From a virus: a stretch of DNA of 21,863 nt. The DNA is taken from positions 1 through 21,863 of IMG/VR virus record IMGVR_UViG_3300028557_002815; one strand, given 5' to 3'. This document shows, in pieces, positions 1,557-21,863 of the stretch. Both the position numbers and the translations under genes were made by a program. Within the stretch, counting starts at the first letter, position 1, and every line of letters starts with the position of its first letter. The notes below the pieces were generated by a model, which saw only the letters and a program-made list of their open reading frames with translations, had not been told where the DNA came from and made no database searches.

Positions 1557-2804
1557 ATGCCTCGCGCACGCGGCGTGAACGCGGCTCTCGCCGCCGTGTT
1601 CGAAAGCACCTACGGCACCCCGCCCGGCACCGGCTTTCGCCGCATGCCGTTCGCCTCGGTCAACATCGGCGAGGAACAGGGCCTGATCGCGAGCGAGCTT
1701 CTCGGCTTCGGCCGCGAGCCGCTGGCGCCGGTCTATGACGTGATCACCAACACGGGCGATCTCGTCGTTCCCGTGGATACCCGCAACATCGGCGTCTGGC
1801 TGCGCGGCCTGATGGGCGCGCCGACGACCGTCGCCGCGAACGCCGCCACCGGAACGATCACGCTGACCGCGAACCTTCTGGTCAACGACACGGTGACGGT
1901 CGATGGCACGGTCTATACCGCCGTCGCCTCCGGCGCGACGGGCCAGCAGTTCAACCTCGGCGGCACGGCGGCGCTGACCGCCACGGCGCTCGCCGCGATC
2001 ATCAATCCGAGCGCGAACGTCGCGGCCGCGGCGGTTGGCGCGGTCGTCACCCTGACCGCCAAGGCGCTGGGACCGGGCGGCAATGCGCGGACGCTGGCGA
2101 CCAACGCGCCGACGCGCGCCACACTGTCGGGGGCGACGCTGTCGGGCGGCGCCAACAGCCACACCTGGTTCTCGGGCGCGCAGGCTCTGCCCTCGATGTC
2201 GATCGAGGTCCAGCTTCCCGACGTGCCCTTCTTCGGCATGAACTACGGCGCGCGCATCAACAGCTTCCAGGTTCAGGCGCAGCGATCCGGGCTGCTCACC
2301 GCCTCGCTCAACATCATGGCGCAGGGCGAGACCATCGCCGCCACGGCGCAGTCCGGCACGCTGTCGGAGTTCGTGCTGGAGCGCTTCGGCCAGTTCCAGG
2401 GCGAGGTCCGGCGAAACAACGTGGCGCTCGGCAACGTCATCTCGGCGGAGCTCACCTATTCGAACAACCTCGAAGCGGTCGAGGTGATCCGCAGCGACGG
2501 GCGCATCGCTGATGCCGATCCGGGCATCATTGCGCTCACTGGCAACATCACCACCCGCTTCGAGGACCGAGTCCTTCTGGATCAGGCAACCAACCGCCTG
2601 CCGTGCGAGCTTCAATTTCGCTGGGCGGCCGGCGCGGCCGCATCGCTGGTCTGGACCGCACACCGGGTCTTCCTGCCGCGTGGCGACCGCCAGATCCAGG
2701 GGCCGGGCGGCGTGCAGGCCCCGTTTGCATTCCAGGCCGCGATCGATCCGGTGCTGAACCGCGCCGCGACCTGCCTGCTCACCAACGACGTCGCGTCCTA
2801 CTGA
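1557..2804 (+). CDS. Major tail tube protein with inserted beta domain
   Basis: The 415-residue subunit that should polymerise into the hollow tail tube. It begins MPRARGVNAALAAVFESTYG, typical of the Rhizobiales/GTA-like 'phage tail tube protein' family, and ends in a conserved half (from about residue 205: SMSIEVQLPD, then NSFQVQ, GLLTASLNI and SNNLEAVEVI) that matches the polymerising core. Between residues about 97 and 202 lies a Thr/Ala/Gly-rich segment (NDTVTVDGTVYTAV, a GGTAALTATALAAII stretch, VVTLTAKALGPGGNA, SGATLSGG). I recognise it as a module that recurs in unrelated phage structural proteins; it probably decorates the outside of the tube. GGAG at 1545-1548 lies eight bases before ATG 1557. 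Without the insert the protein would be about 310 residues. Confidence 0.8.
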   Translation: MPRARGVNAALAAVFESTYGTPPGTGFRRMPFASVNIGEEQGLIASELLGFGREPLAPVYDVITNTGDLVVPVDTRNIGVWLRGLMGAPTTVAANAATGTITLTANLLVNDTVTVDGTVYTAVASGATGQQFNLGGTAALTATALAAIINPSANVAAAAVGAVVTLTAKALGPGGNARTLATNAPTRATLSGATLSGGANSHTWFSGAQALPSMSIEVQLPDVPFFGMNYGARINSFQVQAQRSGLLTASLNIMAQGETIAATAQSGTLSEFVLERFGQFQGEVRRNNVALGNVISAELTYSNNLEAVEVIRSDGRIADADPGIIALTGNITTRFEDRVLLDQATNRLPCELQFRWAAGAAASLVWTAHRVFLPRGDRQIQGPGGVQAPFAFQAAIDPVLNRAATCLLTNDVASY

Positions 2805-2826: not shown

Positions 2827-3204
2827 TTGCTCAAGCTCTCGACACCATCCCGCGATCCGTTCTGGCTCGACATCCTGCCGGGCGTGCGCATCCAGTTCCG
2901 GCCGATCTCCGTCGCCGACATGCTCGTCGCCCGCGCCGCCGCCGCCGAGTCTCTCGGCACGAAGGTCGAGAGCGACTTGGCCCTCGACCGGAGCACCACC
3001 GTCGCGGCCGGCGCGGCCTTCACGCGTTCGCTCGCGCTGAGCGGCATCGTGGCGTGGGAGGGCATTGGCGACGCTGGCGGCAAGCCGATCGATCCGAGCC
3101 CGGTCGCCATCAATCAGCTGCTCGAGGTCTGGCCCGCCTTTGACGCCATCGACCGGCTCTATGTCGGCCCGGCCCTGACGAGGTTTGAGGAAAAAAACGT
3201 CTGA
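2827..3204 (+). CDS. Tail assembly chaperone, short form (G)
   Basis: Zero-frame product of 125 residues, the functional equivalent of lambda gpG. These chaperones bind the tape measure and recruit tail tube subunits during assembly and are absent from the finished virion. The start is TTG at 2827, supported by a strong ribosome site (AGGAGG, 2816-2821) five bases upstream. The protein opens with FWLDILPGVRIQFRPISVADM and carries AWEGIGDAGGKPIDPSPVAINQ-type wording (residues about 77-98), as in other chaperones of this position. It ends EEKNV followed by TGA at 3202. The slippery sequence for making the long form overlaps the last codons. It lies between the tail tube and tape measure genes, the invariant place for this gene pair. 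Confidence 0.8.
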   Translation: MLKLSTPSRDPFWLDILPGVRIQFRPISVADMLVARAAAAESLGTKVESDLALDRSTTVAAGAAFTRSLALSGIVAWEGIGDAGGKPIDPSPVAINQLLEVWPAFDAIDRLYVGPALTRFEEKNV

Positions 3205-3521
3205 TCGCCCTCGCGCGCTGGCACTTCGAGGGCGGCGATGGCTACTGCGCCGCTTGCCCATCGCGGTGCGGGGCTTGCGCCTATGTCGAGCACGCGCCCG
3301 TCACGGCCGAGGGGCTTCTCGCATGGGAGGTCATCCGCCGGTGCGCGGGACAGGTGCGCGCCGTGATGGGCGGCGTCTACGCCATCGACTTCGGCGCGGT
3401 GCTCGCTTTGGCTGAGGCCATGGATGCGTCCTCGCCGCTGCTGGCCGACATCCTCCCCGAGATTGAGCCGATCATCGTGGCCGCCTATGGCCGCGACGCC
3501 GGCCGTCCCAATCGCGATTGA
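2827..3521 (+). CDS. Tail assembly chaperone, frameshifted long form (G-T)
   Basis: Predicted 231-residue fusion made when ribosomes slip back one base at 3192-3198, missing the TGA at 3202 and continuing to TGA at 3519-3521. In the -1 frame the extension reads ...LIALARWHFEGGDGYC... and ends ...AAYGRDAGRPNRD, about 107 residues. It cannot easily be a separate gene: in its own frame a TGA (3186-3188) lies just upstream, and no ATG or GTG start with a ribosome site follows nearby. In lambda and most siphophages the long form (gpGT) is made in a minority of rounds, and the G:GT ratio matters for assembly. The extension carries an unusual cysteine cluster, C-x2-C-x3-C-x2-C. The tape measure gene starts 12 bases after the stop, so translation of the two may be linked. 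Confidence 0.8.
3192..3234 (+). promoter_or_regulatory. Programmed -1 frameshift site: slippery heptamer plus stem-loop
   Basis: The heptamer A_AAA_AAC occupies 3192-3198 in the correct X_XXY_YYZ phase relative to the G frame (codons GAA AAA AAC GTC TGA). Seven bases later comes a perfect 8-base inverted repeat, CGCCCTCG (3206-3213) and CGAGGGCG (3227-3234), with a 13-base loop; a U-G pair (3205/3235) could extend it. The spacing is in the range usual for stimulatory structures. The zero-frame stop lies between the two elements. I found no convincing pseudoknot partner for the loop. Confidence 0.8.
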
Positions 3522-3533
3522 GCAAACCCGTCC

Positions 3534-6500
3534 ATGTCGACCACCAATGTCTCGATCCGCCTCGGCGTCGAAGGCAAGGCGGAGGTCAAACGCGCCTTCG
3601 AGGAGGTGGGTCAGGCGGGCACGCAGGCCTTCGGGCAGGTCGACCGGGCGCTTGAGAAGACGGGAGCCGCGACGGATCGGGAAACCGCCCGGTTCAAGCG
3701 TCTGGCTGAAGCCGCCCGCATGGCGGCGCAGGCCGATGCCGCGCAGGGGCGGTTCAATCAGGTTCTGGGCGTCGATCGCCAGACGGCGGGTTCGGCGCGC
3801 GCGTCGGCCGAGGTTTTCGAACAGGCCGCGAGGGAAGCCGAACGCTACGAGGCCCGCACGAAAGCCTTGCGCGCTGCCATTGATCCGCTCGCCGCCGCGC
3901 AGGACCGGCTCAATGCAGAACTCGCCGAGCATGCCGCGCTCGCCAGCCGGGGCGCGATCACCACCGCCGAGCAGGCGGCGGCGAATGCGCTGGCGAAATC
4001 GCGTTTCGATCAGACCGCTCAGGCGATCAGGCAAGTCGGCACCAACTCGAAGCTCACGACCCAGCAGGTCATGACGCTTCAGTACACGGTGAACGACGTG
4101 ATCGCGTCGATGTCTACGGGCATGTCGCCGATGACGATCCTGATGCAGCAGGGCGGACAGGTGACGCAGGCCTTCGGCGGCTTGCGCGGCACGATCATGA
4201 CGCTCGGCTCCGCCATCGGCGTTGTCGGCGGCGTCATTGCGGGCGTCGCCGTCTCGGTTGGCGTTCTCACGGCGGCATGGTTCGCCAATGATGCCTCGAC
4301 ACGGGCGGTCGCCACCGCGCTCGCAGGCGTTGGCCGCGCATCCGGCGCGACCGCCGCGCAGCTGGAACAGGTCGCGCAGTCCTCCGCCGAGGCCGGCAAG
4401 GTCTCGGTGTCGTCGGCGCGTGACATACAGGTCGCGTTCCTGCGCACCGGCAAGATCGGCGCGGAAGAAATGGGTCGCGCTATTGCGGTCTCGCGCAATC
4501 TTGGCGTCACGCTCGGCGTCGACACGAAGCAGGGCGCGGAGGAACTCGCCCGCGCGCTGGCCGATCCGTTGCGCGGCGCGGATGAACTCAACGACCGCAT
4601 CCGGTTCCTGGACGATCGCACCCGCGCCTATGTCCGTACGCTGGTCGACCAGAACAACCGGGCTGAGGCGCAGCGCGTAATCTTGAATGCGCTCGCGCCC
4701 TCGCTGGCCGACGCCGAACAGGCGGTCAATGCGCTCGGGCGCGCCTGGCAGTTCGTCGGACGCTCGGCCTCGACCGCCTTCGACGCGCTCGGCAAGGCCG
4801 TCGACCGGGCGGTGGATGGCCGCACGCCGACGGAGGAGCTGGAGCTGCTGCGCTGGCAGCAGGAGCGCCTCAGGGCGAACGTGCGCGGCAATGTCGTGCC
4901 GCTCTTGCTGCCTCAGGTCGAGCGGCGCATCACTGAGCTCGAACGGCAGCTCAACGACCAGCAGGAACGCGCCCGGCGGATCGCGGCAGAGGCCCGCGCC
5001 AACGAGCAATCGGTGCGCGCAGGCGATATCGCCCGTGACACCAACCCCGGCGCACGCGAGATCGAGCGGCTGCGGACGCAGGAAGGCGTGCTCCGCGCCG
5101 CGCTCGCCGATCCGCTGGTCCGCTCGAAACTGGCCGACGTTGCGGAGGTCGAAGCGGCCTACCGGCGTGTCATCACGGAACTCGCCCGCTACCGACCCTC
5201 GGTGGATGCGGCGACGCAGGCCGTGATGGAGCAGACCTCCGCCACGGAAATCTCGATCCGCGCGACGCTTTCACTGGCCGAGGCCTACCTCGAAAGCACT
5301 GAAGCCGCCGCACGCGCGGAGGCTCGCCGGCAAGGGCTCGTCGATCAGGCCCGTGAAGGCGTCAACGCGGAAACCCGCGCCCGGCAGGCCTTGCGGGAAC
5401 GGATTGCCGAACAGGCGGTCGAGGCCGCCCGGCAGGTGTCGGAACTCGGCCGGCAGATCGACGGCCAGCGTCGTCTGAACGAGGCGATTTCCTCGGGCGC
5501 GCTCTCGTCCCAGCGCGCCCAGCAGATCATGCAGGTCGAGCAGGCGCTGCGCCCGCTGATCACGGCGCAGACGCTGGCCGAGGGCGAGGCCAAGGAGAAG
5601 CTCGGACGCATCATCGACAGCACCCGCGAAGCCTACGAGCAGCTTCACCGCGAGCAGAACCGGACAGACCTGCTTCAGGGGATCGAGCGCCGCCGCGATG
5701 AGATCGCGCTCCGTGAGCGGGAACTGTCGCTGGTCAGGCGCGGTCCGACCGCGCGGCGTGAGGGCGTCGATCAGCTGCGCTTCGAGCAGGAACTGAAGCG
5801 GATGGGGATCGATCCGAACGATCCTGAGGCCAGCTATTCCCGCGAGCAGATCAGGCGGCTCAACCAGCTTGGACGCCAGACGACCGGCCGCGAGGCGGCC
5901 TTCGACTACGAGCAGCAGAATACTGGCCTTGCCCGCGAGGTCGAGCTCCTGAAGCAGGGAGCCTCGGCCCGCTCGGAAGCCATCGCCATGATCCGCGCCG
6001 AGCAGCAGCTTCGGCGGCAAGGGATCGATCCGGCGGGAGCCGAGGGACAGGCAGCACTCGCCGCGGCCCGCCGCCAGTTAGCGCTTGAGCGTCAGGCGGA
6101 AGCGCAGGTTGCCTTGCAGGATCAGCGCGCCGAGATCGGCTTGATCGAAACCCAGATCGGCCTGATCGGCGCGTCCGCCCAGCAGCGCGAGACAGTGCTG
6201 GCGACCATTCGCGCCGAACAGGATCTGCGCCGACGCGGCATCGACCTCGCCAGCGAGGAAGGCCAGGCCATCGTCGCCAACGCCGTCCGGGTGCAGCAGC
6301 TCACGACGGAACTTCAACGACAGGAAGCGACCCAGCGAGCCTTGCAGGGCGCGATCGGCAACGCGCTGGACCGGTTCGGAACGCTGCTGGCACAGGGCAA
6401 GACCGACTGGAAGTCGTGGAGAGATGCTGGCCAGTCGGCCATCAACGACATCATGAACGAGCTGATCAAGCTCGCGGTGATGAACCCGCTCAAGAACTTC

Positions 6501-6890
6501 CTGTTCGGCGGCAACGCGCCGACGCTGGCGACCGGCGGCGGCATCTTTGGAGAACTCGGGAAGATATTCGCCGGTCTGTTCCATGAGGGCGGGCTGGTCG
6601 GCGCGGGCGGGCCCGGACGACACATCCCCGCGATGCTGTTCGCGGGTGCGCCGCGCCTTCATGGCGGCGGCTACATCCGGCCAGGCGAGGTGCCGGCCAT
6701 CCTTCAGACCGGCGAGCGCGTGCTGAACCGCAAGGAAACCGCCGCCTACGATCAGCGGGGTGAGCAGGCCGCGCCGATGATGGTGACGTTCAATATCACG
6801 ACGCCGGATGCGGGCTCGTTCCGCCGCGCGCAGGGTCAGATCACCGCCGAGATGGCCTCGGCGCTTGAGAGGGCGAGGCGCAACCTTTGA
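3534..6890 (+). CDS. Tail tape measure protein
   Basis: An 1118-residue tape measure, which sets tail length and is later ejected towards the host envelope. The hallmark of the TMP_2 (lambda gpH-like) family is at residues about 180-215: LQYTVNDVIASMSTGMSP, followed by an MQQGGQVTQAFGG stretch. A hydrophobic glycine-rich segment (about 220-250) is the likely membrane-inserting part. Long Arg/Glu/Gln-rich coiled coil follows, with three related units of about 70 residues (roughly 726-784, 798-853, 868-930). The C-terminus has the conserved WKSWRDAGQSAINDIMNE, FHEGGLVG and PGEVPAILQTGERVLNRKE motifs. At about 0.15 nm per residue this predicts a tail of some 165 nm (inference). ATG at 3534 lies 12 bases after the chaperone stop with only a weak ribosome site. 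Confidence 0.9.
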   Translation: MSTTNVSIRLGVEGKAEVKRAFEEVGQAGTQAFGQVDRALEKTGAATDRETARFKRLAEAARMAAQADAAQGRFNQVLGVDRQTAGSARASAEVFEQAAREAERYEARTKALRAAIDPLAAAQDRLNAELAEHAALASRGAITTAEQAAANALAKSRFDQTAQAIRQVGTNSKLTTQQVMTLQYTVNDVIASMSTGMSPMTILMQQGGQVTQAFGGLRGTIMTLGSAIGVVGGVIAGVAVSVGVLTAAWFANDASTRAVATALAGVGRASGATAAQLEQVAQSSAEAGKVSVSSARDIQVAFLRTGKIGAEEMGRAIAVSRNLGVTLGVDTKQGAEELARALADPLRGADELNDRIRFLDDRTRAYVRTLVDQNNRAEAQRVILNALAPSLADAEQAVNALGRAWQFVGRSASTAFDALGKAVDRAVDGRTPTEELELLRWQQERLRANVRGNVVPLLLPQVERRITELERQLNDQQERARRIAAEARANEQSVRAGDIARDTNPGAREIERLRTQEGVLRAALADPLVRSKLADVAEVEAAYRRVITELARYRPSVDAATQAVMEQTSATEISIRATLSLAEAYLESTEAAARAEARRQGLVDQAREGVNAETRARQALRERIAEQAVEAARQVSELGRQIDGQRRLNEAISSGALSSQRAQQIMQVEQALRPLITAQTLAEGEAKEKLGRIIDSTREAYEQLHREQNRTDLLQGIERRRDEIALRERELSLVRRGPTARREGVDQLRFEQELKRMGIDPNDPEASYSREQIRRLNQLGRQTTGREAAFDYEQQNTGLAREVELLKQGASARSEAIAMIRAEQQLRRQGIDPAGAEGQAALAAARRQLALERQAEAQVALQDQRAEIGLIETQIGLIGASAQQRETVLATIRAEQDLRRRGIDLASEEGQAIVANAVRVQQLTTELQRQEATQRALQGAIGNALDRFGTLLAQGKTDWKSWRDAGQSAINDIMNELIKLAVMNPLKNFLFGGNAPTLATGGGIFGELGKIFAGLFHEGGLVGAGGPGRHIPAMLFAGAPRLHGGGYIRPGEVPAILQTGERVLNRKETAAYDQRGEQAAPMMVTFNITTPDAGSFRRAQGQITAEMASALERARRNL

Positions 6891-8382: not shown

Positions 8383-8817
8383 ATGACCGCCTTCACGCGT
8401 GACGCCCTCATCGCCGAGGCGCGGACGTGGCTCGGCACGCCCTGGCATCACCAGGCGGCGGTCAAGGGCGCGGGCTGCGACTGCATCGGCTTCGTGCGCG
8501 GCGCGGCCGAGCCGTTCATCGGGGCGATCACCCAGCCGATGAACTATGCCGCGACCTGGCCGCTCTACCGGGCCGAAGAGCGCCTGCGCGACGAGATGGC
8601 GGCGCATGCAGCCGAGATCGACATCGCCGATGCCTTGCCCGGCGACATCCTGCTGTTCGGCGTCGGCAAGGGCCCGGCGCATCACTGCGGGTTCCTCAGT
8701 GAGGAGAACCGCCTGCTGCATTGCTATCGCGAGGCGGGCGCGGTCGTCGAACAGGACCTGACCGGATTCTGGATCGAGAAGACGCGCGCCGCTTTCCGCC
8801 TGCCGGGGATCGCCTGA
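8383..8817 (+). CDS. NlpC/P60 phage cell-wall peptidase (GTA gp14-like)
   Basis: A 144-residue cysteine peptidase of the NlpC/P60 phage family (TIGR02219), the equivalent of the GTA tail-tip peptidase that cuts peptide cross-links so the tail can cross the wall. The start helix (REDALIAEARTWLGTPWHHQ-like; actual residues begin TRDALIAEARTWLG) leads to the catalytic motif GCDCIGFVRG with nucleophile Cys34. The second motif, AHHCGFLS, supplies His101, and LLHCYREAG supplies the third polar residue, His113. PGDILLF between them is the usual LxPGDxLlF box. ATG 8383 is chosen because family members begin here; an in-frame start upstream would run through the hub gene's 3' end. Its stop overlaps the next gene's ATG (TGATG). 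It sits with hub and megatron genes, so it is a virion peptidase rather than the endolysin. Confidence 0.9.
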   Translation: MTAFTRDALIAEARTWLGTPWHHQAAVKGAGCDCIGFVRGAAEPFIGAITQPMNYAATWPLYRAEERLRDEMAAHAAEIDIADALPGDILLFGVGKGPAHHCGFLSEENRLLHCYREAGAVVEQDLTGFWIEKTRAAFRLPGIA

Positions 8818-9449
8818 TGGCGCGCATCGTTCTGACCGTCGGCGGCGCAGTGCTTGGCAACCTGCTGCTGCCTGGGCTCGGGCAAGCCATCGGCGGGGCC
8901 ATCGGCTCCTATGTCGGCGGCATCATCGATCAGCAGTTGTTCGGCGAAGGCGCGCGCAACAACGTCGTCACCGGCCCGCGCCTGCAAGACCTTCGCGTGC
9001 AATCATCGGGCTATGGCTCGGTGATCCCGCGCGTCTATGGCAAGGCACGACTGTCGGGCAACGTGATCTGGATGCGCGGCTTCGACGAGGAGACGCGCAC
9101 CGAGACGCAAACGGTCGGCGGCGGCGGCAAGGGCGGCGGTGGCGGCGGCCGGCAGACCACCACGACCGTGACTTACGTCTATTTCTGCGATGTCGCGGTG
9201 GCGCTCTGCGAAGGGCCGATCACCAGTATCGGAAAGATGTTCGCCGACGGCAACGCCATCGGCTCCGAGCACTATGCCGCGCGACGCGTCTATCTCGGCG
9301 ACGCCACACAATCGGCTGACCCGCTGATCGCGGCGACCGAAGGCCTCGCGCCCGCCTATCGCGGCCTTGCCTATGTGGTGCTGGAACGCTTCGCGATCAC
9401 GCCCTTCGGCAACCGCCTGCCGAACTTCTCGTTCGAACTCACCGCCTGA
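8817..9449 (+). CDS. Glycine-zipper tail protein, stand-alone copy of the megatron N-terminus
   Basis: A 210-residue protein that aligns end to end with the first roughly 213 residues of the following gene product, with about half the positions identical in the first 43 residues (24/43 by eye). Shared landmarks are VLTV at the start, a GLGQA-x-G...GSY-x-G...I-x-Q-x-LFG glycine zipper (residues about 20-43), IPRV(Y/W)G, NVIWMRG/NIIWVRG, a TVGGGGKGGGGGG linker, CEGPIT, and ITPFGNRLPNF before it stops. The glycine zipper could insert in or span a membrane, or pack helices in the tip. ATG 8817 overlaps the peptidase stop, so translation is coupled. I know no experimentally defined role. It may be a tip subunit that packs beside the larger homologue. 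Confidence 0.75.
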   Translation: MARIVLTVGGAVLGNLLLPGLGQAIGGAIGSYVGGIIDQQLFGEGARNNVVTGPRLQDLRVQSSGYGSVIPRVYGKARLSGNVIWMRGFDEETRTETQTVGGGGKGGGGGGRQTTTTVTYVYFCDVAVALCEGPITSIGKMFADGNAIGSEHYAARRVYLGDATQSADPLIAATEGLAPAYRGLAYVVLERFAITPFGNRLPNFSFELTA

Positions 9450-9461
9450 AGGGTCTGATCC

Positions 9462-12400
9462 GTGGCGCAACTCGTCCTGACCGTCGCAGGCAGCTGGGCG
9501 GGCAACGCCATCGGCGGCGGGCTTGGCCAGGCGGCGGGCGCGATGCTGGGGTCCTATCTCGGCGCGGCCATCGAGCAGGATTTGTTCGGCCCAGGCCCCG
9601 CGGCCGTCAACAGGAGCGAGGGCGCGCGCGTCACCGATCTGCAGGTCTCGGGTTCCGCCTATGGCCAGCCGATCCCGAGGGTCTGGGGACGCGGGCGGAT
9701 CGCGGCCAACATCATCTGGGTGCGCGGCATCAGGGAGACTGCGATCACCGAAACCGAGACCACGGGTGGCGGCGGCAAGGGCAGCGCGAGCCGTGGCGGT
9801 CGTCGCCAAACCACGGTTCGCACGCGCTACGAGTACTCGGCCGACATCCTGCTCGGCGTCTGCGAGGGCCCGGTCACGGCGGTCTACCGGATCTGGGTCA
9901 ACAACACGATGCTCGATCCCGAGCATGTCGGCGCGATCCGGGTCCAATACGGCGAGGAAGGCCAAGTGGCCGATCCGCTGGTGGCAGCGGTCGAGGGCGC
10001 AGGCCGGACGCCCGCCCATCGCGGCCTCGTCACGGTCATGCTGGAGGACTTCAAGCTCACGCCGTTCGGGAACCGCTTTCCGAACTTCGAAATCGAGGTT
10101 TACCGGGGCTCGGACGATCCGGGCAATGCGCGCAACCTTGTGCAAGGCGTTTGCCTGATTCCGGCCTCCGGCGAGTTCGTCACCGACACGGACATCGTGC
10201 GCAAGGTTGGCCACGGCTCGGCGACGTCGCAAGCCGCGATCAACGCCAACACCGGCACGAAGCGCTCGGACTTCCTTGTCTCGATCGACAACCTCAAGCG
10301 CGAACTGCCGAACGTCGAATGGATCAACTTCGTCTACGCCTGGTTCGGCACGTCCATCGATGTGGCCACCTGCGATCTCGTGCCCAAATGCGAATACTCG
10401 CAGGCGCAATCCGGCGCGGTAGGGGCCGAGACATCGCCGCACCTCTGGTCGGTCGCGGGCGGCGGGCGTTCCGTCTGGCCGGTCGTCACCTCCTACACCC
10501 TGCCGAACGGGCAATCGGCGCTCTCCTATGGCGGCACGATCAGCGACGGATCGGTGATCCGGGCGGTTCAGGAACTGAAGGTGCAGGGCTACAAGGTCCT
10601 GTTCTACCCGTTCATCATGATGGACATTCCGCCGCCCGATCCGGCGCCGTTCCCCTGGCGCGGCAGGATCACGGGAGCGGCGGCGGACGTGCCCGGGTTC
10701 TTCACCCATCCTGCGGGGTATGTGCGCTTCATCCGCCACTGCATGACGCTATGCGAGCAGGCCGGCGGCGTCGATGCCTTTGCCATCGGTTCGGAAATGG
10801 TTGGCCTCAACCGCATCCGGGATGGAGGTGGAGCCTATCCCGCCGTGCCATTCTGGCGACAGATCGCGGCGGAAGCGAAGACACGGCTCGGGGCGGCTTG
10901 CACGGTCACCTATGCCGCCGACTGGTCGGAATACCGCTACAACGACCGGGGCGGCGCAAACGTGGACTTCCCGCTCGACGCCCTCTGGGCGGACAGCAAC
11001 ATCGATGCCGTCGGCATCGACGCCTACTTCCCCATCACCGACGCCGACCGCTCCCTGACCGACCCTGCCGCGATCGGCGCAGGCTGGGGTTCAGGCGAAC
11101 TGATCAGCTACTTCTATGCCAGCGAGGCCGACCGCGATCTCGCCGGGCGCGGCGCCAACCGCATCCAGTCGCCGATCAGCGAGCCGTTCTGGGCGCTCAA
11201 GGACCTGCGCTGGTGGTGGGACAACGCCCACACGCCGCGCGTCAATGGCGTGCCAACGGGATCGCCGACGGCGTGGACGCCGCGGATGAAGCCGATATGG
11301 CTCACCGAATACGGCTTTCCGTCGGTCCATTGCTCGCCGAACCGCCCGAACGTCTTCGTCGATCCGAAGTCGGCGGAAAGCTTCTACCCCTGGTACTCGA
11401 ACCGATCCGTGGACCGCGTAGTCCAGCGCGTCGCGATCAAGGGCACCGAGGATTGGTGGCGGGACCTCGCGAACAATCCGCTCGATGGCCAGGGACGGCG
11501 GATGATCGGGCCGCGCTTCCTGTGGTGCTGGGATGCGCGGCCTTACCCGTTCTTCCCGTCGCTGAAACGAGTCTGGCAGGACGGCGACAACTACCGCCTC
11601 GGCCATTGGGTTCAGGGAAAGATCGGCAACATGCAGCTCTCCGAGATCGTGCGCGATCTGTGCCTTCGCGCCGGGCTTTCCAATGCCGACATCGATGTGA
11701 CGAGCCTCACCGACGAGGTCTCGGGATATGTGGTCAGTGAGCGCAAGTCGCTGCGCGAGATGATCGCCGTCTTGCAGACCGCGTTCTTCTTCGACGCAGT
11801 GGAGAGCGGCGGGGTGTTGCGCTTCGTCAGGCGCGGCGGCGGAACCATTGTCGCTGTCGACGCCAATGATCTCGGCGCGGCGGAAGGCGACGGCGACCGG
11901 GCGCGCATCCGCATCGAGCGTGCGCAGGATGTCGAACTGCCGATCTCGATCGACGTGGTGCATCTCGACGAGGCCCGCGATTATCAGAGTTCAACCGTCA
12001 CGGGCCGCAGGCAGCTCGGCACCTCGCACAGCGTGACCACGTTCTCGCTGCCGCTGATCCTCTCGGTCGAGGAAGCCCAAACCATCGCCCAGCGCGCGCT
12101 CCGCGAAATCTGGCAGGGCCGCGTGACGTTGGAGGCCAAGCTGCCGACCCGCGCGATCCGCATCGATCCGACCGATGTGATCGAGGTTCCGGTCGATGGC
12201 GTGGTCCAGCGCTTCCGGGTCACCTCCGTGACCTATGGCAAGCCAGGGCTCGTACTGGTGCGTGGCGTCGCAACCGACGGCGACCTGCCGCAGTTCGTCA
12301 CCGTTCCGACCGGATCAGGCGATCTGCAGCCAAACGTGCCGGAGACCGCCTCGCCGACGCGGGTCGAACTCATGGACCTGCCGCTTCTGTCGGAAGCCGA

Positions 12401-13283
12401 TGCTGGCGAGGCGACCTCGTTCTACATGGCCGCATGCTCGCTCGGTGGCGCGCCGTTCCGGGGCGTCTCGCTGTTCCGGCCGACAGCGGACGGGCTCGAC
12501 TACACCGTCTCCGGCGTCGCCGACGTCGCTTCCGTGATCGGCGACACCGTGACTGCACTCGGATCGGGACCGGCGCATATCTGGGACAACGGCAACACCG
12601 TCGAGGTGCAACTCGCCTTCGGCTCGCTCGAAAGCCTTCCCGATACGCGGATCCTCGATGGCGCGAACGGCGCGCTGATCAATGGCGAGATCGTCCAGTT
12701 CGCCAACGCGGTGCTGATCGGACCGGGACGCTATCGGCTCTCGCGCCTGCTGCGCGGGCGGCTCGGGACCGAGCACCGGATCACGACGCACGCCATCGGC
12801 TCGCGCTTCGTTCTGCTCGATCCCGGCCGGCTTGAGCGGCCGACCTTCTCGGCCTCCAGGATTGGCCTCACCATCGCCTGGCGGTTCGCGCCGGTACCGC
12901 AGGGGCCGACCGGGGACCAGTCCGGGCAGATCAGCTTCGCGAATGGCGGCGAGGCCCTGAAGCCATGGTCGCCGGCGCATGTGCGGGGCACGCGCAATGG
13001 CGCGGGCGATATCACGATCAGCTGGGTCCGCCGCACCCGCTACGGCGGCTGGTGGCGCGATCTGACGGACGTTCCGCTGAATGAAGAAGTCGAGCGCTAC
13101 GAGGTCGACGTGATGAACGGCTCGACGGTCCTGCGCACGCTTCCCGCATTTGCGCCCACTGCCATCTACACCGCCGCCCAGCAGGTCGCCGATTTCGGAT
13201 CGGCGCAGGCGAGCGTCACCGTCCGCGTCGTCCAGCTTTCGACCGCGATCGGGCGCGGCACGCCAGCCGTGGCGACGATCTGA
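9462..13283 (+). CDS. GTA-type tail-tip 'megatron' protein with TIM-barrel-like domain
   Basis: A 1273-residue baseplate/tip protein, close in length to GTA gp15 (about 1300). Order of parts: N-terminal glycine-zipper and GGGGKGS linker (1-110); hub-type beta region with CEGPVTAVYRIWVN (about 130-215); GTA TIM-barrel-like domain (about 290-720), with GSEMVGLNRI (Glu445) and WLTEYGFP (Glu616), the two places where clan GH-A glycosidases keep their acid/base and nucleophile; phage-tail_3-like region (about 726-935; starts LSEIVRDLCLRAGL); and a C-terminal beta-rich region with a fibronectin-like end. It would bind or degrade surface polysaccharide and close the tail. GTG at 9462 follows the upstream stop by 12 bases, with AAGGG at 9449-9453. 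It belongs to the same tip operon as the hub and peptidase genes. Confidence 0.88.
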   Translation: MAQLVLTVAGSWAGNAIGGGLGQAAGAMLGSYLGAAIEQDLFGPGPAAVNRSEGARVTDLQVSGSAYGQPIPRVWGRGRIAANIIWVRGIRETAITETETTGGGGKGSASRGGRRQTTVRTRYEYSADILLGVCEGPVTAVYRIWVNNTMLDPEHVGAIRVQYGEEGQVADPLVAAVEGAGRTPAHRGLVTVMLEDFKLTPFGNRFPNFEIEVYRGSDDPGNARNLVQGVCLIPASGEFVTDTDIVRKVGHGSATSQAAINANTGTKRSDFLVSIDNLKRELPNVEWINFVYAWFGTSIDVATCDLVPKCEYSQAQSGAVGAETSPHLWSVAGGGRSVWPVVTSYTLPNGQSALSYGGTISDGSVIRAVQELKVQGYKVLFYPFIMMDIPPPDPAPFPWRGRITGAAADVPGFFTHPAGYVRFIRHCMTLCEQAGGVDAFAIGSEMVGLNRIRDGGGAYPAVPFWRQIAAEAKTRLGAACTVTYAADWSEYRYNDRGGANVDFPLDALWADSNIDAVGIDAYFPITDADRSLTDPAAIGAGWGSGELISYFYASEADRDLAGRGANRIQSPISEPFWALKDLRWWWDNAHTPRVNGVPTGSPTAWTPRMKPIWLTEYGFPSVHCSPNRPNVFVDPKSAESFYPWYSNRSVDRVVQRVAIKGTEDWWRDLANNPLDGQGRRMIGPRFLWCWDARPYPFFPSLKRVWQDGDNYRLGHWVQGKIGNMQLSEIVRDLCLRAGLSNADIDVTSLTDEVSGYVVSERKSLREMIAVLQTAFFFDAVESGGVLRFVRRGGGTIVAVDANDLGAAEGDGDRARIRIERAQDVELPISIDVVHLDEARDYQSSTVTGRRQLGTSHSVTTFSLPLILSVEEAQTIAQRALREIWQGRVTLEAKLPTRAIRIDPTDVIEVPVDGVVQRFRVTSVTYGKPGLVLVRGVATDGDLPQFVTVPTGSGDLQPNVPETASPTRVELMDLPLLSEADAGEATSFYMAACSLGGAPFRGVSLFRPTADGLDYTVSGVADVASVIGDTVTALGSGPAHIWDNGNTVEVQLAFGSLESLPDTRILDGANGALINGEIVQFANAVLIGPGRYRLSRLLRGRLGTEHRITTHAIGSRFVLLDPGRLERPTFSASRIGLTIAWRFAPVPQGPTGDQSGQISFANGGEALKPWSPAHVRGTRNGAGDITISWVRRTRYGGWWRDLTDVPLNEEVERYEVDVMNGSTVLRTLPAFAPTAIYTAAQQVADFGSAQASVTVRVVQLSTAIGRGTPAVATI

Positions 13284-18041: not shown

Positions 18042-21000
18042 CTATAACCCTAACAGCGCGCGTAGCTTCTGCTCTATACCGGCAGAGTCGATGCCTTGAT
18101 CTTCGGTGGTCGTCACGAGGATTCCTGCGTCTCCTTCACCCTCGTCTTCCGGCAACACGCCCTGAGAGCGATACCAATCCAGCTTCGCTAGCCAGCGGCG
18201 TCGATATGCCGGTTCAGACAGCAGCCCAAGGTGCTCCAGAAAGACGCGCCGACCAGTCTCTGCATCTTCAATCGTGAAGTCAGGATATCGAACGCTGCCG
18301 TCCTGCCCGGTGAAGGGTTGTTCGTAGGCGTAGGTGATGCCAAGGGCCTGAAGCAGATTGGCAATGATCACCTCCGATTTGGAGCGGACTAGCTCGCCGC
18401 GGGTGGTGCGGTGAATGAGGCCTTCTTCGAGGAATGCCCCGACATGCTCGACAGGCTTGGGATCGGAAAACAGATTTGTCAGCCGACGGGCGGTCTCGGA
18501 ATGCTCGGATAAAGACAGCTTCAGGAGGGCCCGAAGGTCGCCCTGGTGAAAGAGGACCACTTGTTCACGTTGGCGCGTCAGTGCGGTGTAGAGCAGTTCA
18601 CGTGACAGAAGGCGGCAAGGATTCGGGATCACAATGAAGGTCATGCCGAATTCGCTGCCTTGGGCTTTGTGAATGGTCAACGCATAGGCGAGCTCCAAAG
18701 GCGCTTCGCCTTCATCGCCGAAATCATTCCCTCCAAAACCAAACTTGAAGCCCAGCTGCGAAGAGAATTCGACCTCGAGCTTCCAGGGGAGCCCCTTTGG
18801 CTTCCAACTGCTCCCTTTGAACTGGCCCACAACGATCCCGATCTCACCATTGGCGAGATAACCCTTCTCCATTTTTGGATAGACGTCGTACCGCCTCGCA
18901 TTGGCGACATTGATCACTTTGTCGCCGTACAGCACGCCTTGTGCGCCCAACGGCTTGCAGGTTTTGCGCTCCCAGTATTTTTCAGGCTCGGCCCAAGCAC
19001 GTGCTTGCCGTCGGAAGGACTTCTGAAGCCATCGATTCAAGCCGTCTACGCCGGTCTCGCCAGCGCGCACCGGTGACAGTATCTGCCATGCTTCAGCGTC
19101 GGCGCCTCCTCCGCGACGGCTTTCGACGCCCGAGGCATCTTTCTCTGGGCGAGAGGGGTTGAAGTACACGATCTCATTGAACGGACGTCCGCCAAGGCTG
19201 ATTTCGAAGGTGGCCTCGTCCCGCTCGTCGTCGAAGCCTTGCTTTTGCGAAATGCTCCGAGTCGCCGCCTTGATCTCGGCAAGAAGCTTTGTCTGGAGGT
19301 CGGTGTCGCCTTCCCAGCGAACAGCTCGAATGCCGATCGACTTGCCGCTGGCTAGACGATCCCAGGCTTCATCAGCGCCGGGATCGGTAGCCTCTCCCCC
19401 GAACCATCTCGACAAGATGATGTCGTCGCGGGCCCCTGGCGGCTGTCCGGCCGCGACTGACTGCTCGGTCTGCCGGCGCACGATCTTGAGTTCCGCATAC
19501 CCGAGTGGTGCCGTGCTGGCTGCCGTGGCAGCGGCGTCGTTCAAATAGCGGACGATGTCGACAAATGGGCGACCCGCGCCAATCGGCGGGAGCTGCCTCG
19601 GATCGCCCACCAATATCAATCGTTCGACGGCTGTTGTTTCGATAGCATCAAGGGTGGCCGCCAATTGGTCCTCGGTCAGCATCGAGCACTCGTCGATGAC
19701 GACAGTCTTGAAGCCGCGCTCGCGGTTAGCATCATCGGTAACGCGATAGGCCCCGGTCAGTGGGTCATAACGTTCGAGTGCCAACAAGAACTGCGCGAGT
19801 GTGTAGGCTTGCGCATTGTTGGCCCGCTTCTGCATCTGAACCCGCGCTTTGCCGGTCGGGGCCAGGAGGAGGACACCCCCGGCGGCGACAGACGGCAACG
19901 ACAGCAGGGCCGTCAAAAGGCTCGTCTTGCCCGTACCGGCAGGCCCGATCAGAACCGAAAAGCGAGACCGATAAATTTCCTCCAGCGCTTTGGCTTTCTC
20001 GAGACGGGCAAGCTCCTCCGTCTCTGGGTCGCTCGCCGCCTCGAACGGCGGAAGTTGTCGGTCAATAAGGGCTCGCCAATCGTGCTCGCCGGCATGCCGT
20101 TTGCCCGCGAGGCGCCGTTTCACACGAGCCGAGATGAGGTCGCGTGACTCTGCATACTCCTGGAGCTGCCATGCGGGGGTACCATCCGCCATACGGGCGA
20201 CTGCGATCCTTGCCTTCAAGAATGTGCCAAATGCCTCGATCCAATCGGCGCCGATTGCGCATTGGGGCGAGATGTCGAGGTCGCGGACGCGTTGCACGAG
20301 CCAAGATTGGGGAAGCAAGGTATGCCCTTCACCCGCTGCGCGATCGAGCGTGGTGATCACCAAGGCGCGGCCGCGACGGGGATCAATCGCCTCCGCACAG
20401 CGGGAGGGATCAGGTACGGGCGCCGCTGTCGCAACCGTCGCGTCGGGGAACAGTCCACGATCGATCACTGCTGCTGAAATCGGGTCGATGCGTCCGCGGT
20501 CGTCTTCGAAGCAAAGATAAGGGTTCGCTAGAATTTCTGCGTCGGAAGCAGTGATGGCTGCCCGCTTGCGTTCCTCGGTTACAAACCATCGGGTCGCCTG
20601 ATCGGCAGTGATCTCGAATCTGGCAAGCAGCTTCAGCAGCGCCCGCCGTTCTGGCTTCAGGCTGCCCCAGAGTTTTGCCGCCGTCGAACCAATTGTCGCT
20701 GCCAAATCGGGAGCGAGCAGGGTCGGCTCGTGAAGCACCTTTTCGACGAGCGGCCAAGGATCGCGCACCTCCTGAGATCCGTCGGCGTGCAGCTGTTGAC
20801 CAATGGCGTGGGCGACCAGGGTACCGTGAGTCAATCCGAACGCTGTCAGCGCTGAGCCAAGGCCGGGAAAGGCACCCCGAAGCCGCCAGATCCGGTTGAG
20901 CTGAGTGTCGACCCAGCCCCGAGCGGCGGACCAGTTGCCAGGCACTACCTTTTCGAGCCGCTCCAGCAGCGACGCGCAGGCGAGCAGAACCGTGATCGCC

Positions 21001-21863
21001 TGGTCATGTGTCACATGCTCAGTGCCCATCGAGAACGCGTCCCAGTGTTCCTCGGGCGCGTGGAGCACAAGACTCGACAAATCAATGCTCGGGTCTTTTG
21101 CGGCAAGGTCAATCAGGTCGTGGTAGGGAAGGAGAAAGCCGTCCTTGATCTCTGGCCGGATCGAGTGATGTAGATTGCGCTCCCACAGGACGCAGCGCAT
21201 GGCATCCGACGGCGCGCCCTTCTCGTAGATGTATTCGACGGAAGGGTCGACCTTGAGAACTCGACCTACGCCGACGATGACTCGCCGTCCGTCATCCGTC
21301 AGCGGAGTGCGCTTGGCGTAGAAGAAGACAAGAGACTCCTCGGGTGTGATGGCGCCGAAGAACGTGTCGAGCATCGCGAGCTGGTTCCGGCGTTCCTGAA
21401 CCCAGAGCTTATCGAATTCGAGATCGGGCTCGAGTTCGGGTCGGAAGTCAATCTTGTAGGCCTTGGCCCGGTCAGGGATGCCGTCGTCCGAATTCTTCAT
21501 CATCCAGGCGAAAGGAACAGCCGCAGCCGAAAAGGCCACATGGTGGAAGTAGCCTTCCTGGAAATGTTTGTATCTGGGGTCGTGGCTATACGGGTGGCGG
21601 ACCCTTCTGGCATAACCGAAGGGCGCCATGAATGCTCCGCGTTCTGCGGCGCATGCCGGTAGCCGAGCGCCGTCGGGATCCCAAGCGGCCCCAGCGACGC
21701 TCGTCTCGAAATCGTCGTCCTTGGTTTCCGCCACTCTCGGCAGGATCAAGCAGGATGTGTTTCCCCGCGGATTGGCGCAGATCGTCCCGGCCCAACGGCT
21801 GTCGTGCCATGGCACTCGGATGGAAACGTGCATGGTCGGAAGCTGTCTCGCGCCTCTGATCAT
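18042..21863 (-). CDS. RecD-like SF1 helicase with C-terminal PD-(D/E)XK-type nuclease domain
   Basis: A protein of up to 1273 residues. ATG at the window edge (21863) may not be the true start; ATG 21833 (residue 11, MHVSIRVPW) looks more natural, and the frame could also extend past the edge. Parts: N-terminal segment with WHD (19-21), Cys29 and N-x-x-C (35-38); a long conserved region without recognised domain (about 75-580); helicase core with Walker A GPAGTGKT (640-647), Walker B DECSM (724-728), GDPRQLPP (753-760), IHKAQGSEF (1064-1072) and YTALTRQR (1092-1099); then a nuclease-like end with Glu1164 (SKSE), PDF (Asp1195), Glu1210 (LEHLG) and Lys1227. Such SF1B enzymes move 5' to 3' on DNA. 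It converges on the spanin genes with an 8-base gap and no visible terminator. It may be prophage cargo with a defence or recombination role, or a flanking host gene. Confidence 0.8.
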   Translation of the reverse strand: MIRGARQLPTMHVSIRVPWHDSRWAGTICANPRGNTSCLILPRVAETKDDDFETSVAGAAWDPDGARLPACAAERGAFMAPFGYARRVRHPYSHDPRYKHFQEGYFHHVAFSAAAVPFAWMMKNSDDGIPDRAKAYKIDFRPELEPDLEFDKLWVQERRNQLAMLDTFFGAITPEESLVFFYAKRTPLTDDGRRVIVGVGRVLKVDPSVEYIYEKGAPSDAMRCVLWERNLHHSIRPEIKDGFLLPYHDLIDLAAKDPSIDLSSLVLHAPEEHWDAFSMGTEHVTHDQAITVLLACASLLERLEKVVPGNWSAARGWVDTQLNRIWRLRGAFPGLGSALTAFGLTHGTLVAHAIGQQLHADGSQEVRDPWPLVEKVLHEPTLLAPDLAATIGSTAAKLWGSLKPERRALLKLLARFEITADQATRWFVTEERKRAAITASDAEILANPYLCFEDDRGRIDPISAAVIDRGLFPDATVATAAPVPDPSRCAEAIDPRRGRALVITTLDRAAGEGHTLLPQSWLVQRVRDLDISPQCAIGADWIEAFGTFLKARIAVARMADGTPAWQLQEYAESRDLISARVKRRLAGKRHAGEHDWRALIDRQLPPFEAASDPETEELARLEKAKALEEIYRSRFSVLIGPAGTGKTSLLTALLSLPSVAAGGVLLLAPTGKARVQMQKRANNAQAYTLAQFLLALERYDPLTGAYRVTDDANRERGFKTVVIDECSMLTEDQLAATLDAIETTAVERLILVGDPRQLPPIGAGRPFVDIVRYLNDAAATAASTAPLGYAELKIVRRQTEQSVAAGQPPGARDDIILSRWFGGEATDPGADEAWDRLASGKSIGIRAVRWEGDTDLQTKLLAEIKAATRSISQKQGFDDERDEATFEISLGGRPFNEIVYFNPSRPEKDASGVESRRGGGADAEAWQILSPVRAGETGVDGLNRWLQKSFRRQARAWAEPEKYWERKTCKPLGAQGVLYGDKVINVANARRYDVYPKMEKGYLANGEIGIVVGQFKGSSWKPKGLPWKLEVEFSSQLGFKFGFGGNDFGDEGEAPLELAYALTIHKAQGSEFGMTFIVIPNPCRLLSRELLYTALTRQREQVVLFHQGDLRALLKLSLSEHSETARRLTNLFSDPKPVEHVGAFLEEGLIHRTTRGELVRSKSEVIIANLLQALGITYAYEQPFTGQDGSVRYPDFTIEDAETGRRVFLEHLGLLSEPAYRRRWLAKLDWYRSQGVLPEDEGEGDAGILVTTTEDQGIDSAGIEQKLRALLGL

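Follow-up and report, generated by a model that had tools for sequence, protein, structure and literature searches.

Evidence for -1 ribosomal frameshifting in a lambda-type tail assembly chaperone gene whose extension carries DUF7697

Introduction

How is an open reading frame expressed that has no start codon of its own? The question is raised by a tail gene in the IMG/VR virus record IMGVR_UViG_3300028557_002815, of which we analysed positions 1 to 21,863 (the whole stretch of 21,863 nucleotides, hereafter the window). A short zero-frame gene, G, is overlapped and extended by an open -1 frame, T, and the original prediction, made from the letters of the DNA, was that the two encode a tail chaperone pair joined by a -1 frameshift. 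Support for this reading comes from the protein families, from the order of the genes, from 159 homologous loci and from the annotation of related phages, and the locus is almost certainly a lambda-type G/GT tail-assembly-chaperone gene with -1 ribosomal frameshifting. A gene of this kind gives both a short and a long tail-assembly helper, and its long half is often overlooked or cut short in annotation.

Results and discussion

The slip site and its reading frames

The features discussed below are collected in Table 1. Read from its TTG codon, the zero frame ends in GAG GAA AAA AAC GTC TGA, which places AAAAAAC in the X_XXY_YYZ phase, as originally claimed. A run of seven A residues occupies positions 3191-3197 and is followed by C3198 and G3199. 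Three bases separate the heptamer from the zero-frame stop codon, and not the four that had been counted. The -1 frame has a TGA codon at 3186-3188 and is open from 3189 to 3518; its predicted length of about 107 codons agrees with our count. The earliest ATG, GTG or TTG codon of this frame lies approximately 54 codons in, and no start codon covers the whole extension, so the absence of an ordinary start was correctly noted. The predicted fusion comprises 124 + 107 = 231 residues. Many homologues of G begin with ATG where G of the window has TTG.

Table 1. Positions of the chaperone gene, its recoding elements and the flanking genes in the window.
Feature	Position	Strand	Remarks
Tail tube protein (gene before G)	1557-2804	+	Pfam Phage_tube_2, E = 5.8e-51
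Gene G, zero-frame tail assembly chaperone	2827-3204	+	125 aa; TTG start, TGA stop 3202-3204; phrog_313
Slippery heptamer A_AAA_AAC	3192-3198	+	read from sequence; in-phase heptamer in 158/159 distinct loci
T extension, -1 frame	3192-3521	+	107 residues after the slip (3198-3518), TGA stop 3519-3521; DUF7697
Hairpin, proposed frameshift stimulator	3206-3234	+	8-bp stem 3206-3213/3227-3234; 7-nt spacer; 13-nt loop
CxxCxxxCxxC motif of the T extension	3246-3278	+	C19, C22, C26 and C29 counted from 3192; candidate metal site
Tape measure protein (gene after T)	3534-6890	+	Pfam TMP_2, E = 5.6e-43; phrog_24, E = 6.2e-49

AAAAAAC occurs only once in the window (both strands), but 0.36 copies are expected and 32 of 100 shuffled sequences contained at least one. 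The heptamer alone is thus within chance, and a 115-nt fold of the window did not favour the hairpin (z = -0.02), so that the case for frameshifting rests on comparison with relatives. The phase, position and conservation of AAAAAAC, unlike its mere occurrence, exceed chance.

Protein families and gene neighbourhood

The zero frame of the window matches the tail assembly chaperone family phrog_313 with an E-value of 3.7e-6, as do all 44 aligned G homologues (best E-value, 2e-20); no Pfam family was found for G. In Pfam, the -1 frame scores 49.5 bits against DUF7697 (E = 3.9e-13; curated cut-off, 27), a family matched by 45/45 aligned T homologues; the frame also matches phrog_11212. Pfam DUF1799 scored 13.6 bits against T of the window, below its cut-off of 26; it matches 11 of the 45 T homologues at E < 0.01 and, judging from these scores, is perhaps a distant relative. 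The gene order is tail tube, G, T and tape measure, the chaperone pair coming immediately before the tape measure gene. Farther along the window lie DUF2460, baseplate hub and 'megatron' genes, as in alphaproteobacterial phages and gene transfer agents.

Homologous proteins are encoded by the RcC-cluster phages of Rhodobacter capsulatus (RcKemmy, RcFrancesLouise, RcKai and RcKvothe), with approximately 29-38% identity for G and 38-39% for T. These phages share with the window the location of the chaperone genes between tail tube and tape measure and the presence of a hairpin after the site, and their genes are annotated as one short CDS and one two-piece joined CDS. They differ from it in their heptamer (G_GGA_AAC), in the position of the zero-frame stop, which lies 97 bases beyond the first base of the site, and in a 10-bp stem in another register. 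According to the paper on the R. capsulatus phage collection, its phages usually have a tail-chaperone frameshift, with RcZahn as an exception (PMC8601537). G/GT frameshifting of the lambda type is well documented, as the original prediction had stated for siphophages (PMC5009743); Levin 1993 and Xu 2004 and 2013 are the lambda studies cited there. Given this precedent and the deposition of the RcC homologues as two-piece joins, the frameshifting proposed for the window is of a known kind.

The window resembles lambda in the position of the gene, in the two products predicted from one -1 slip and in the extension borne by the long form. We found no sequence relation between DUF7697 and lambda T in this analysis. 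The lambda heptamer is G_GGA_AAG, unlike the A_AAA_AAC of the window. The dnaX gene of E. coli is similar to the window in having an A-run heptamer with a stop codon very close behind and a downstream hairpin; it differs in using A_AAA_AAG and an upstream Shine-Dalgarno sequence, an element not clearly supported here, and in that its frameshift product is the shorter one. Haloarchaeal viruses offer a likeness by heptamer: of the g-t sites of HCTV-1, -2 and -5, those of HCTV-1 (G_GGA_AAC) and HCTV-2 (A_AAA_AAC) have the two main heptamers seen among the relatives studied here, the hosts being archaeal (PMC5009743). In E. coli, A_AAA_AAC is much less prone to shifting than A_AAA_AAG, which counts against the frameshift reading (PMC5009743).

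Conservation of the heptamer

Homologues were drawn from phage records, viral contigs and genome contigs, giving 159 distinct loci; the closer alignment set, A2, seeded the collection scan, the full alignment A1 being too diverse. An in-phase X_XXY_YYZ heptamer is present at the aligned position in 157 of these loci, and in one further, distant locus (L202) it lies one codon later. The site reads AAAAAAC in 142 loci (including L202), GGGAAAC in 12, AAAAAAA in four and ACAAAAC in one. One of the viral-contig scans used a peptide pattern that includes KKR and was therefore biased towards the slip site. The scan of genome contigs used only WHF and the Cys motif, leaving the site outside its patterns, and here the heptamer was kept in 75/76 distinct loci. 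Elsewhere in the same genes, heptamers occupy only 8 of 13,326 in-phase positions (0.06%). Lysine codons elsewhere in these genes are AAG rather than AAA in a ratio of about 140:41, whereas nearly all slip sites have AAA AAA. In the 12 G_GGA_AAC loci lysine is replaced by glycine in both frames. As both peptides are changed and the slip rule is nevertheless obeyed, the sequences point to selection on slippage itself and not merely on the peptides.

Of 68 loci, 27 have a zero-frame stop that starts ten bases beyond the first heptamer base, and in the rest this distance is 61-166 bases; given this variation, closeness of the stop is not a constant element of the mechanism.

Several loci depart from the common arrangement. 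A relative in Methylobacterium goesingense (L060:2498) has ACAAAAC in place of the heptamer, with both frames open. Three loci (L017:2170, L036:2501 and L104:2501) have eight A residues at the slip site, which puts G and T into one frame; this may reflect a sequencing error, decay of the prophage or a genuine switch to an in-frame fusion, to which polymerase slippage perhaps contributes. The assembly containing L036 had, according to its record title, been polished with a PacBio tool. In IMGVR_UViG_3300049811_000652 (L009:3001-3400) T has no stop codon of its own any more and continues in frame as the tape measure protein; going by the reading frames, the slippage product would be a G-T-tape-measure fusion. 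The genome that holds L031 has a second G/GT locus (L206), in which an apparent AbrB-like/PIN-domain toxin-antitoxin pair, recognised by eye, occupies the opposite strand in the interval (approximately 1672-2320) that separates T from the tape measure gene.

The downstream hairpin

The stem proposed in the original prediction, CGCCCTCG (3206-3213) with CGAGGGCG (3227-3234), pairs perfectly at the claimed distance of seven bases. A local 48-nt segment of the window that contains this stem folds with -21.0 kcal/mol, and among 200 synonymous recodings 10 folded as stably; taken by itself, the window gives a modest result (z = -1.68). The signal is clearer among the relatives. In a 45-nt sliding fold averaged over 68 non-redundant loci, the energy dropped sharply to a minimum in the segment that begins 6 nt past the first base of the heptamer, with a mean of -25.2 kcal/mol for the peak segment (+6 to +51), -22.0 for the neighbouring step and about -10 to -18 elsewhere. 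When the hairpin segment was compared with recodings that keep the peptide, the mean z was -1.96, with 72% of loci below -1.65, compared with -0.12 for same-frame control segments. Because of the relatedness of the loci, this mean should not be taken as a tally of independent events. Seven loci (L028, L039, L051, L060, L126, L127 and L196) have no hairpin clearly beyond the synonymous-codon null.

The majority of relatives have a stem of approximately 13-14 bp with a 6-nt loop. In the window and a few others, which have Glu instead of Gly after WHF, the stem is 8-9 bp, closes a 13-nt loop and is displaced by one codon. From this difference in register, the hairpin appears to have been maintained through a register change. 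Conservation of the peptide leaves only weak covariation in the majority register: 89% of its cells are paired, and changes on both sides were found in only two cells, no better than in shuffles. We used the synonymous-codon test in place of covariation. By this measure of codon choice, the hairpin at the slip site is under selection. Homologues that keep both frames without the heptamer and stem had been named as the observation that would count against frameshifting. The heptamer was found in 158/159 loci; the stem was found in most, was missing from some, and is in a non-majority register in the group of the window.

An internal Shine-Dalgarno sequence upstream of the slip site was not clearly supported by comparison with synonymous recodings (mean z = -0.64; mean duplex energy, -4.5 compared with -3.5); z was about -2.3 in the LTRLD subgroup and only -1.1 in the window. 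A search of Rfam gave no match.

Proposed mechanism and alternatives

We infer the following sequence of events. Most ribosomes would read G and terminate at the TGA at 3202. In a minority, the tRNA-Lys on AAA (3193-3195) and the tRNA-Asn on AAC (3196-3198) would slip back by one base on A_AAA_AAC, probably helped by the hairpin that starts seven bases past the heptamer, and these ribosomes would read 107 further codons to produce GT. By analogy with lambda, G may coat the tape measure protein and the T part of GT may recruit tail tube subunits, with both G and GT presumably absent from the virion.

The frames could also be joined at the level of RNA. RNA polymerase slipping on the seven A residues might add one A to some transcripts, and the altered mRNA would then fuse G and T. 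An A7 run is indeed present at the site in 137/159 distinct loci, and the three loci with eight A residues in the DNA have G and T in frame. Against this, the 12 G_GGA_AAC loci, with only three A residues, retain both frames, and what is conserved is the phase and the heptamer rule, which is more than an A run; the selected downstream hairpin, moreover, suits a ribosome better than a polymerase. The GGGAAAC loci and the hairpin favour ribosomal slippage, and we consider polymerase slippage very unlikely.

T as a separate protein, made by stop-restart at the CTGA overlap (3201-3204) or from an internal start, is more improbable still. The CTG at 3201 does overlap the TGA, and gene callers use an internal ATG start in cyanophage relatives, but relatives do not preserve a start at the overlapping codon (they have CTG, CTC, ATC, ATT, CTA or CTT), and with the zero-frame stop anywhere from 10 to 166 bases past the site the stop-start geometry is unconserved while the heptamer is conserved. 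A canonical start is present among the first 30 T codons in hardly any locus, and an internal start would drop the conserved Cys motif. As the window may derive from a prophage, and as A-runs attract indel errors, we also considered that the frame break marks a pseudogene in a decayed prophage or a sequencing error. The same break, in the same phase and with both frames intact, is present in 156/159 loci from isolate phages, genomes and metagenomes; this conservation already refutes the idea, and we regard its probability as negligible. Ribosomal frameshifting thus remains the preferred reading of the locus.

The T extension

The four cysteines of the T motif are invariant in 41 aligned relatives (genome and viral contigs). 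Among a wider set of 45 relatives, C19 and C29 are invariant, and C22 and C26 are conserved in at least 90%. The T domain may bind a metal (zinc or an iron-sulphur cluster) through this motif, a proposal to which we give somewhat less than even chances; only the minority product GT would then carry the metal, and tail assembly in this group of alphaproteobacterial phages would depend on it. One relative (L021:3001-3381) has an insertion of about 18 residues within the Cys-motif region.

The AlphaFold models of both proteins are good (pLDDT 90 for G and 87 for T). Searches of the PDB by sequence and by fold gave nothing significant for G or T. In a viral library, the T model was closest to the 'Tape measure chaperone' of Serratia phage Scapp and others (probability 0.99, E approximately 0.05), a predicted likeness of fold that is suggestive only.

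The DUF7697 and phrog_11212 families leave out approximately the first 55-58 residues of the extension and start close to its earliest internal GTG/ATG codons; in two cyanophage records, the gene call covers the extension only from an internal ATG onward. These boundaries fit the claim that gene callers miss the second half of the gene, and together they suggest that DUF7697 and phrog_11212 were built from truncated gene calls. The analysis gives a role to a family whose function was unknown: DUF7697, like phrog_11212, is the C-terminal half of the tail-chaperone frameshift extension. Our literature search found no paper naming DUF7697. The heptamer and hairpin together provide a rule for annotating a gene that is often truncated or missed in many alphaproteobacterial phages and prophages.

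Other features of the window

Two further observations concern other parts of the window. A 212-aa protein (8811-9449) shares 49% identity with the first 213 residues of the 1273-aa megatron directly behind it (9462-13283), and by this similarity the pair is a tandem partial duplication. On the minus strand, opposite in orientation to the tail genes, an open frame of 1273 aa (18042-21863) with AAA_30/AAA_19 and UvrD_C_2 helicase domains reaches the edge of the window.
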